A DNA stretch of 36,320 nucleotides from Negativicutes bacterium (lineage in GTDB: Bacteria > Bacillota > Negativicutes > JAGPMH01): positions 1 to 36,320 of the forward strand of contig JAGPMH010000017.1 of assembly GCA_018052945.1 (NCBI GenBank), written 5' to 3'. A program made the translations under genes and the position numbers. Each line of letters begins with the position of its first letter. Within the stretch, counting starts at the first letter, position 1. Shown here one piece after another: positions 2,634 through 5,717 of the stretch. A model generated the notes under the pieces. The model was given only the letters and a program-made list of their open reading frames with translations, was not told the origin of the DNA and searched no databases.

Positions 2634-2702
2634 ATATTTTTTTTGCTAAAAAATTTTAATGGCAGGAAAAATACAAGATATGGCGTAATATTAAAAAGTG
2701 TT

Positions 2703-2718
2703 GCACTATATATAGTGA
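2703..2718. promoter_or_regulatory. NrdR box
   Basis: GCACTATATATAGTGA contains a 14-bp perfect palindrome (2704-2717). It matches the published NrdR box consensus acaCwAtATaTwGtgt at all but the two end bases. It lies 69 bases upstream of nrdR, the gene for the repressor that binds such sites. NrdR boxes usually come in pairs. A weak partner at 2734-2749 (right half AAAAGTGA) sits at the usual 31-bp centre distance, and another weak candidate lies at 2673-2688. Autoregulation of the nrdR-nrdD-nrdG operon is inferred. Confidence 0.75.
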
Positions 2719-2755: not shown

Positions 2756-2787
2756 AAATATTAGCTCAAATGATAGGAGAGAAAAAT

Positions 2788-3261
2788 ATGCGTTGTCCTT
2801 TTTGTAATATCGGCGATAGTAAAGTTATTGATTCACGTTCGGCTGAAGATGGCAATACTATTAGAAGAAGAAGAGAATGCTCTTCTTGTAATAAGCGATT
2901 TACAACTTATGAAGTTGTGGAACAATTACCATTAATGGTCATTAAAAAAGATGGACGAAGAGTTCCATTTGAACGTGAAAAACTCTTATCAGGCATTGTT
3001 AAGGCTTGTGAAAAAAGACCGGTTTCAATTGGTAGTATTAATATGTTGGCTACTAATATTGAAAAGGACTTAAAAAATACGATGGATCGAGAAATTCCTA
3101 GTCAAGATATTGGCGAAACTGTAATGAAGTATTTAAAAGATTTTGATCAGGTTGCATATGTCAGATTTGCTTCAGTCTATCGGCAGTTTACTGATGTTGG
3201 CAATTTTATGAAAGAGCTTGAAACTTTAATGAAGTCAAATAATTTAAAAGGAGATGGTTAG
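2788..3261 (+). CDS. nrdR: Transcriptional repressor NrdR
   Basis: A 157-residue protein of normal family length. The N-terminal zinc ribbon has Cys3, Cys6, Cys31 and Cys34 (CPFC...CSSC) followed by a basic segment for DNA binding. An ATP-cone follows from about residue 49 (VIKKDGRRVPFEREKL), through which NrdR senses ATP/dATP and represses ribonucleotide reductase genes. The start is ATG at 2788, seven bases after AGGAGA; an earlier in-frame ATG at 2770 precedes that site and is rejected because the family begins MRCPFC. The stop is directly followed by the nrdD start, so the two are co-transcribed and possibly translationally coupled. Confidence 0.96.
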   Translation: MRCPFCNIGDSKVIDSRSAEDGNTIRRRRECSSCNKRFTTYEVVEQLPLMVIKKDGRRVPFEREKLLSGIVKACEKRPVSIGSINMLATNIEKDLKNTMDREIPSQDIGETVMKYLKDFDQVAYVRFASVYRQFTDVGNFMKELETLMKSNNLKGDG

Positions 3262-5199
3262 ATGTTTACAAAAATAATTAAGAGAGATGGTCGGGAAGAG
3301 TCTTTTGATGAACGCAATATAACGGATGCTATTTTTAAAGCAGCACAAGCGGTGGGCGGTGCTGATCGAGAAATAGCGATGGAACTAACATTAGATGTAT
3401 TAAAGGAATTGAAAAAGAAATATGCCGGCGAAGTTTTTTCGGTAGAAGACGTGCAAGATGTTGTGGAAAAAGTTTTAATTGAAACCGGTCATGCTAAAAC
3501 GGCGAAAGCTTATATTTTATATCGTGCTCAAAGAACTAGAATGCGTGATGCGCAATCAGAATTAATGGATGCAGTAGCGGATATTTTAGTTGAAACTAGC
3601 AAAGAAAATGCTAATGTTTCTAATTCTCCTTCAGCTAAAATGTTACAAATAGCCAGTGCTGCCAGCAAAGCATATTATTTAAATAGATTAATTCCTGAAA
3701 AATTTTCTAACGCACATACCAGTGGAGACATTCATATTCACGACTTAGATTTTTATGGAAAAACATTAACTTGTGTTCATATCCCGCTGGGGAAATTACT
3801 GAACAGTGGTTTTGATAATGGACATGGTTATATTCGTATGCCTAAAAGACCGGCATCAGCTACAGCATTAGCCGCAATTATTTTACAAAGTTCGCAAAAT
3901 GATATGCACGGTGGTCAATCATTTGCGTTCTTTGATAAGGATATGGCACCGTTTATGGCCAATGCGACTGATGAAGAAATATATCAAGCAATGGAAGCTT
4001 TAATTTATAATTTAAATAGTATGCATAGTAGAGCTGGTGCACAGGTGCCTTTTTCTAGCTTAAATATTGGTACTGATACATCGGATTTAGGACGAAAAGT
4101 AATTAAAAATATTTTGTTAGCTTATGAAAAAGGTCTTGGTAATGGTGAAAATCCAATTTTCCCTAATATTATTTTTAGAGTTAAAGAGAATATTAATCTT
4201 AATCCGGGAGATCCGAATTATGACTTGTTTAAATTAGCAATCAGAGTTGCTGCGCAAAGATTAAATCCAACCTTTAGTTTTATGGATTCTTCGTTTAATA
4301 GACCATATGGTGATCAAGTTGGTTATATGGGATGTCGTACTAGAGTTATGGCTAATATTTGTGGTCCGGAAGTTAGTGATGGTAGAGGAAATCTCAGCTT
4401 TACTACTATTAACTTACCACGCTTAGCAATAAAAGCTGAACGTGACTTAATGAAATTTTACCAAAGCTTATCTGATTTAATGGACATGACTAGTGAACAG
4501 CTATATCATCGTTATCAGGTTCAGGCGAACTTAAAAGTTAGGGATATGCCGTTTTTAATGGGACAAGGGCTATATCTTGACTCTGATAAGTTAGAGCAAT
4601 ATGATTCCATTGAAAGTGTTATAAAACACGGAACATTATCAGTTGGTTTCATTGGGTTGGCGGAAACTTTAGTTGCTTTGACCGGTAATCATCATGGCAG
4701 TAGTGCTGATGCCCAAAGTTTAGGGGAAGAAATTGTTGCATTTATGCGTAATAAAATGGATAAAGCAATGGAAAAATATGGATTAAACTACTCCTTGTTG
4801 GCAACCCCAGCCGAAGGCTTATCAGGACGGTTTGTAAAAATGGATCGTCGTATTTTTGGGGAGATTGCAGGAGTTACTGATAAAGAGTATTATACTAACT
4901 CCTTCCATGTTCCAGTAAGTTTTAATATAAGTGCACAAGATAAAATTAAAATTGAAGGGGTTTATCACAAATATACTAATGCCGGACATATTAGTTATGT
5001 TGAGTTTGATGCTCCGCCAGTTAATAATTTAAGTGCGGTTGAAGATTTAATCAGATATATGAAGGAATGCGATTTTGGATATGCCGGTATAAATTTCCCA
5101 ATTGATTTTTGTGAAAGCTGTGGTTATATCGGAGTTATTGACACTGACTCTTGTCCAGGCTGTAAAAAAGCTCAAGTACGTAGAGTGAAAAAAGCTTAA
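3262..5199 (+). CDS. nrdD: Anaerobic ribonucleoside-triphosphate reductase, lacking the glycyl-radical C-terminus
   Basis: A class III reductase converting ribonucleotides to deoxyribonucleotides without oxygen. An N-terminal ATP-cone (about residues 3-92) sets overall activity. The catalytic barrel carries Cys171 (TCVHIP) and Cys358 on the finger loop (GYMGCRTR). The C-terminal zinc site is CESC (617, 620) and CPGC (631, 634). Family members continue after this site as RR[VI]xGYL, whose Gly bears the essential radical, then about 30 more residues. Here the protein reads VRRVKKA and stops at residue 645, so the radical Gly is absent. One-base shifts in the preceding A run do not restore it. 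Everything upstream is intact. The activase gene nrdG follows. It may work with a separate glycyl-radical subunit or be inactive. Confidence 0.93.
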   Translation: MFTKIIKRDGREESFDERNITDAIFKAAQAVGGADREIAMELTLDVLKELKKKYAGEVFSVEDVQDVVEKVLIETGHAKTAKAYILYRAQRTRMRDAQSELMDAVADILVETSKENANVSNSPSAKMLQIASAASKAYYLNRLIPEKFSNAHTSGDIHIHDLDFYGKTLTCVHIPLGKLLNSGFDNGHGYIRMPKRPASATALAAIILQSSQNDMHGGQSFAFFDKDMAPFMANATDEEIYQAMEALIYNLNSMHSRAGAQVPFSSLNIGTDTSDLGRKVIKNILLAYEKGLGNGENPIFPNIIFRVKENINLNPGDPNYDLFKLAIRVAAQRLNPTFSFMDSSFNRPYGDQVGYMGCRTRVMANICGPEVSDGRGNLSFTTINLPRLAIKAERDLMKFYQSLSDLMDMTSEQLYHRYQVQANLKVRDMPFLMGQGLYLDSDKLEQYDSIESVIKHGTLSVGFIGLAETLVALTGNHHGSSADAQSLGEEIVAFMRNKMDKAMEKYGLNYSLLATPAEGLSGRFVKMDRRIFGEIAGVTDKEYYTNSFHVPVSFNISAQDKIKIEGVYHKYTNAGHISYVEFDAPPVNNLSAVEDLIRYMKECDFGYAGINFPIDFCESCGYIGVIDTDSCPGCKKAQVRRVKKA

Positions 5200-5213
5200 G
5201 TAAGGTGGTTGCG

Positions 5214-5717
5214 TTGTTAAGAATATCAGGAATAATTAAAGATAGTATTGTTGATGGTCCGGGGTTACGGTTTGTTGTTTTTACGCAAGGTTGTAACCAT
5301 AACTGCTTAGGCTGTCACAATCCACAAACTCATGATTTAAAGGGTGGTTATGAAATTAGTGTAAGTGAATTGGCAGAAATTATGGCAGAACAAAGACTGA
5401 TAAGGGGTGTTACCTTATCTGGTGGTGAGCCATTTTTACAGGCCGAAGCGCTAATACCTTTTGCAACTATCGTTAAGAAAAATAGTTTAAATTTAATAGC
5501 TTATACGGGTTATTACTTTGAAGATTTGCTAAAGTTAAGTGCTGAAAACACTAACATTATGGAATTGTTAAAATATATTGATGTCTTAATTGATGGCCCG
5601 TTTGTTTTACAGCAGAAAGATTTAAGCATTCCTTTTAGAGGATCAAAAAATCAAAGACTTGTTGATGTTAAAAGGTCGCTAGAGACTGGTAATGTGGTGA
5701 CTTTAGCACAAATATAA
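5214..5717 (+). CDS. nrdG: Anaerobic ribonucleotide reductase activating protein
   Basis: A 167-residue radical SAM enzyme of normal NrdG length. Cys27, Cys31 and Cys34 (CNHNCLGC) bind the 4Fe-4S cluster, and the SGGEP motif contacts SAM. NrdG generates the glycyl radical on NrdD. The start is placed at TTG 5214 because AAGGTGG lies six bases upstream; the GTG at 5205 falls inside that binding site. It begins 14 bases after the nrdD stop, so the genes form one operon. Its presence implies that a glycyl-radical target exists, although the adjacent NrdD lacks the usual target Gly. Confidence 0.93.
   Translation: MLRISGIIKDSIVDGPGLRFVVFTQGCNHNCLGCHNPQTHDLKGGYEISVSELAEIMAEQRLIRGVTLSGGEPFLQAEALIPFATIVKKNSLNLIAYTGYYFEDLLKLSAENTNIMELLKYIDVLIDGPFVLQQKDLSIPFRGSKNQRLVDVKRSLETGNVVTLAQI

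Follow-up and report, generated by a model that had tools for sequence, protein, structure and literature searches.

The Negativicutes bacterium analysed here very probably possesses a two-piece class III RNR, in which the storage radical would sit on a separate, replaceable small subunit. The large piece, the NrdD encoded in the window (the whole stretch of 36,320 nucleotides that was analysed), would provide the zinc site, the ATP-cone, and the specificity and active sites. The radical glycine would come from the small piece, an 87-aa protein encoded on another contig and here called the "NrdD radical subunit". As judged from sequence, this split arrangement recurs among related bacteria from the gut and the environment, in dozens of genomes. 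With clearly less confidence, we also consider it probable that these bacteria represent a branch of anaerobic RNRs with the radical on an exchangeable subunit, which would have arisen on at least seven occasions through a ratchet (spare part first, then tail loss), would allow the oxygen-cut piece to be swapped and the 70-85 kDa enzyme to be kept, and would be the first spare-part family for a glycyl radical enzyme (GRE) other than pyruvate formate-lyase (PFL).

The RNR genes of the window stand in a row on the forward strand, and the following features were recognized:

2671..2718, + strand: NrdR-box pair (ATACAAGATATGGCGT, 16 nt, GCACTATATATAGTGA), predicted by consensus scoring upstream of nrdR-nrdD-nrdG
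2770..3261, + strand: nrdR, RNR-gene repressor, 163 aa as given in the ORF list; zinc ribbon and ATP-cone in the translation
3262..5199, + strand: nrdD without glycyl-radical tail, 645 aa; profile matches, alignment and AlphaFold model
5110..5163, + strand: zinc site of NrdD (Cys617, 620, 631, 634); translation and alignment of 20 NrdDs
5164..5199, + strand: C-terminus of NrdD, KKAQVRRVKKA and stop; gap-free alignment to GHTSIRRVRRI of intact relatives
5205..5717, + strand: nrdG, activase; TIGR02491 at 143.6 bits, above cut-off

A preliminary description of this DNA had claimed that NrdD stops before its glycyl-radical loop, with the zinc site, the catalytic cysteines, the ATP-cone and the activase intact, and our searches bear this out. 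The chain ends in CPGCKKAQVRRVKKA, then a stop, and Pfam NRDD matched it with 605.7 bits over profile positions 1-535 of 562. Its end aligned with zero gaps to intact relatives of the same subtype (KKAQVRRVKKA to GHTSIRRVRRITG), so that the last residue of the window NrdD lies two positions ahead of the radical Gly. The distance from the last zinc Cys to this Gly, previously put at 15-16 residues, is in fact 13 in 31/31 intact NrdDs of the window subtype, and the stop of the window NrdD stands at +11. With regard to the remainder of the enzyme, Cys171, Cys358, Asn116, Asn118, Cys620, Cys631 and Cys634 were invariant among 20 aligned NrdDs (Cys617 nearly so), and the NxN flap (N116, N118), the catalytic Cys and the ATP-cone are intact in the window copy. 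The NRDD profile score and the AlphaFold model (mean pLDDT 81; TM 0.83 to the P. copri NrdD, 8p2c) indicate the NRDD-type ten-stranded barrel fold. Apart from the radical Gly, which is absent from this chain, all tests of sequence and fold place the window NrdD among the class III RNRs.

An A-rich stretch precedes the stop, which would favor a sequencing or assembly error that removed a normal NrdD tail. However, a frame check after the zinc site found the GYL motif in no frame over positions 5101-5402, in agreement with the earlier statement that neither a deletion nor an insertion in the A run restores it, and nrdG starts within ~15 nt of the nrdD stop, which leaves no room for a tail. The same architecture also appeared in dozens of independent assemblies, some of them single-contig. 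Tail-less NrdDs were present in 14/61 of the class genomes searched and in 52/56 genomes of the family of G047 (single-contig assemblies included), frequencies that exclude chance or assembly error as the source of the design, and we regard the probability of such an error in the window as negligible.

In a profile search of the genome, which comprises 1.64 Mb and is 99.8% complete, a second NRDD match appeared on contig 33; it covers profile positions 531-562 and lies in the following ORF:

G000:C33:14032-14295, minus strand: small radical ORF, 87 aa, complete; NRDD profile match

The encoded protein (MIKIIADPAISQEEVEAIIAEEKVLYSNIGKKLAEVNLTLENDEIIIKSYAASPIKRIRRITGYLSEEHNFNDAKQDELRDRITHVN) terminates in RIRRITGYLSEEHNFNDAKQDELRDRITHVN, an NrdD-type RRITGYL tail, and its last 35 residues correspond to the NrdD glycyl-radical tail. 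It matched PF13597 (NRDD), without a match to PF01228 (Gly_radical). A good ribosome site (aacaggggtgatatcATG) is present at the start of the ORF, which has genes for a PHP-type phosphatase and a universal stress protein on one side and short ORFs on the other; the gene is unlinked to nrdD in this genome. The preliminary description had suggested a genome search for a small ORF with a GYL motif and had proposed that the radical segment may come from a separate small protein, in the way that GrcA/YfiD provides one for PFL. The 87-aa ORF is what that search retrieved, and its membership in a conserved family (see below) is consistent with the proposed function.

The N-terminal 55 residues of the small protein are predicted to form an ordered beta-alpha-beta-beta domain, for which no significant PDB match was obtained by sequence or by structure. 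The best match was the ribosome hibernation factor YfiA/HPF (E 0.24), which we do not claim as the fold of this domain. Considering that the N-terminal half of YfiD is required for binding PFL (PMC8683613), the domain is by analogy likely the docking part on NrdD; since it matches no known docking module, docking on NrdD is a guess.

The small ORF was detected in 14/14 class genomes with a tail-less NrdD compared with 25/47 of those lacking such a copy (Fisher p=0.001, relatedness of the genomes ignored). Similarly, 51/52 tail-less genomes in the family of G047 carried it (confirmed on closer look in G123), in 19 cases directly downstream of nrdD at 216-365 nt from the NRDD match, and the small ORF was absent from G134 and G135 of this family, which have fused NrdD only. 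Genome G121 holds a tail-less NrdD copy without the small gene, and its second NrdD copy is intact. In a Clostridia MAG (L167), nrdD, the small gene and nrdG overlap in this order. The two proteins also correspond in type: NrdDs of subtype A (DFCxxCGY) occurred with a GYLS-type small protein in 7/7 split class genomes, and those of subtype B (HPVDRDPVCGY) with a GYLVG-type small protein in 7/7. Genomes with an intact NrdD often carry the small gene as well (e.g., the nearest sister, G006), and the number of such genomes indicates that the small gene is not always obligatory.

All 40 distinct small ORFs from class genomes (Negativicutes) align over their full length, with E14, R57, RRITGYL, N72, A74, K75, E78 and R82 invariant. 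The same core and the invariant Gly are shared by 55 further small proteins from named records, which include Ruminococcus albus, R. flavefaciens, Sporomusa, Desulforamulus and Phascolarctobacterium; all 55 matched NRDD in Pfam. Overall, the search for relatives gave at least 463 matches, ordinary NrdD tails among them. Two or three small radical ORFs each were seen in genomes G030, G042, G045, G059, G009 and G027; in G045, one such ORF belongs to subtype A and another to subtype B, which fits its two NrdDs. Among viral contigs, none of 20 pattern matches was a relative of the small protein, and phage and plasmid records yielded only weak partial matches. Two unannotated human-gut phage records (MT838827.1, 585-767; MT837046.1, 7649-7819) contain a partial relative of ~42% identity, from which it follows that phages may carry the small protein or an NrdD tail.

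NrdR boxes usually occur in pairs, with a spacing of ~31-32 bp. Sites were scored against a consensus from the literature, and the pair before nrdR-nrdD-nrdG served as positive control; with a score of 40 of 48, it ranked first among the + strand pairs of the 36-kb window. At the locus of the small gene, the top-scoring sites cluster just upstream of the ORF, where a pair spaced by 31 bp ends 99 bp before the start and a pair spaced by 33 bp scores one point more. Strong pairs (score >=34, <=300 bp upstream) were found for 42/100 small genes vs. 0.27% of 1477 control stretches; these counts are not independent because the small genes are related, but the contrast with the controls is large. 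Of the split class genomes with an unlinked small gene, 9/12 have a strong pair, and the two in which the small gene lies right behind nrdD have none, as would be expected of an operon. Some small genes are without a detectable pair. Directly upstream of the small ORF (L092), three or more NrdR-box-like sites may stand in a row with spacings of 30-33 bp, which would exceed the usual pair. The small gene, with its predicted box pair upstream, is thus apparently under NrdR control.

The occurrence of small genes in genomes with intact NrdDs (25/47 class genomes without a tail-less copy, sister G006 among them) could also suggest that the small protein is a mere repair spare part and that the nrdD gene of the window has decayed or does not function. 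Nevertheless, the window reading frame has no internal stops and all catalytic residues are kept. In addition, a PF02867 search found no catalytic subunit of class I/II RNR in this 99.8% complete genome, so that the fallback offered by the preliminary description, another RNR doing the work, finds no candidate here. No other RNR was found either in 19/20 split genomes tested from the family of G047 (PF02867; four of them single-contig). Without a class I/II enzyme, the split NrdD must work and the DNA synthesis of this bacterium should depend on it. Because RNR function is essential, we consider decay to be very unlikely.

The genome encodes one PFL (contig 20). A PF01228 search of the genome yielded only this PFL and the window NrdD, and no PFL-type GrcA. 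The small protein might then serve another GRE of the cell, such as this PFL, were it not that the PFL already has a complete Gly_radical domain of its own. Moreover, the profile matched by the small tail is NRDD rather than Gly_radical, NrdR boxes are predicted at the small gene, and the type of small protein follows the NrdD subtype. A partnership with PFL is extremely unlikely in light of these results, and a partnership with NrdD is our preferred reading.

To place the split enzymes, we built a tree of 82 NrdDs with the tail columns left out (quick search, LG+G4). At least 7 switches between fused and split forms fall on well-supported branches, and parsimony counts 10. The sister of the window NrdD is that of G006 (97% SH-aLRT), which is fused, has the same nrdR-nrdD-nrdG order and is accompanied by a small ORF; comparison of the C-terminus with relatives, as the preliminary description had advised, thus gave a gap-free alignment, a recurring tail-less form and a fused sister. 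Most tail-less NrdDs stop between ~2 residues before and 4 after the Gly position (two run 8-12 beyond), and they keep the strand preceding the Gly, which the small protein duplicates. The simplest account of these sequence patterns would be that the small protein arose before any tail loss, as an NrdD spare part, and that the built-in tail was then lost several times; the small genes in genomes with intact NrdDs likewise suggest that a GrcA-like spare part turned into an obligate component. The NrdD of G021 (L215:35-3328) is unusual in its length of 1097 aa: NLNSMHS is followed in frame by a large insert that ends in ...FVHNS and looks like an intein.

Many tail-less NrdDs, the window copy not among them, have a terminal Cys pair (SCCE, NCFCC, ITCC, ITCSC) where the radical loop would otherwise start (Cys-ending examples are L086, L087, L042, L081, L189, L191, L193, L204 and L206). 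By analogy with the cysteines at the C-terminus of class I/II RNRs, this pair could have a redox role. One might argue that tail-less NrdDs are active without a glycyl radical, through another radical source or these C-terminal cysteines, given that several relatives end in CC or CSC. Such an explanation is exceedingly improbable for the window enzyme, which lacks the terminal Cys pair; the activase gene nrdG is kept, and a small Gly protein is present in nearly all cases.

In the two-piece enzyme that we favor, the N-terminal beta-alpha-beta-beta domain would dock the small protein on NrdD, its Gly loop would enter the NrdD barrel beside Cys358, and NrdG would install the glycyl radical on the small protein. 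Upon exposure to oxygen, cleavage at the radical would cost only the small piece, which could then be replaced. Originally, the small gene probably served intact NrdDs as a spare part, like YfiD/GrcA for PFL, and repeated loss of the built-in tail would have left an NrdD permanently shaped like an oxygen-cut enzyme.

Spare parts have been validated only for PFL (YfiD/Y06I) and are speculation for other GREs (PMC8683613); with the small-protein family, the idea becomes testable beyond PFL. The small subunit is also a possible handle on radical loading by NrdG and a possible drug target, as RNR is essential and the split enzyme appears to be the sole RNR in most of these anaerobes. Annotation would tend to label split NrdDs as truncated and their partner as a fragment. 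In the openly searchable literature on NrdD, on YfiD/GrcA and on class III RNRs in split form, we found no description of a two-piece NrdD.

The class III NrdDs of Prevotella copri (8P23), Streptococcus thermophilus (9D3X) and phage T4 (1H78) have the same fold, ATP-cone, catalytic Cys, zinc site and NrdG partner, but their radical Gly lies in the same chain, whereas the split system would place it on a separate small protein. Consistent with the known enzymes, an RNR review gives 'Glycine in enzyme' as the storage radical of class III (PMC4390871). A storage radical on a separate subunit is likewise a property of the class I RNR NrdAB, although its radical part is not homologous and holds an oxygen-dependent tyrosyl/metal radical. 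The closest resemblance in construction is to the PFL spare parts YfiD/GrcA (E. coli) and Y06I (phage T4), which are also small and free-standing and in which an additional N-terminal region precedes the C-terminal glycyl-radical segment. Cleavage of PFL by oxygen removes the chain from Gly734 onwards, and the last strand of the cleaved enzyme is duplicated in YfiD (PMC8683613); in the same manner, the small protein duplicates the strand before the Gly loop, and its partner resembles an oxygen-cut enzyme. The two differ in that the N-terminal half is predicted to be ordered in the small protein but is disordered in YfiD (PMC8683613), and in that YfiD/GrcA acts as a rescue whereas the small protein would be obligatory in split genomes. 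By analogy, the small piece may work like GrcA from outside the PFL-type Gly_radical family, with a radical domain of the NrdD type.
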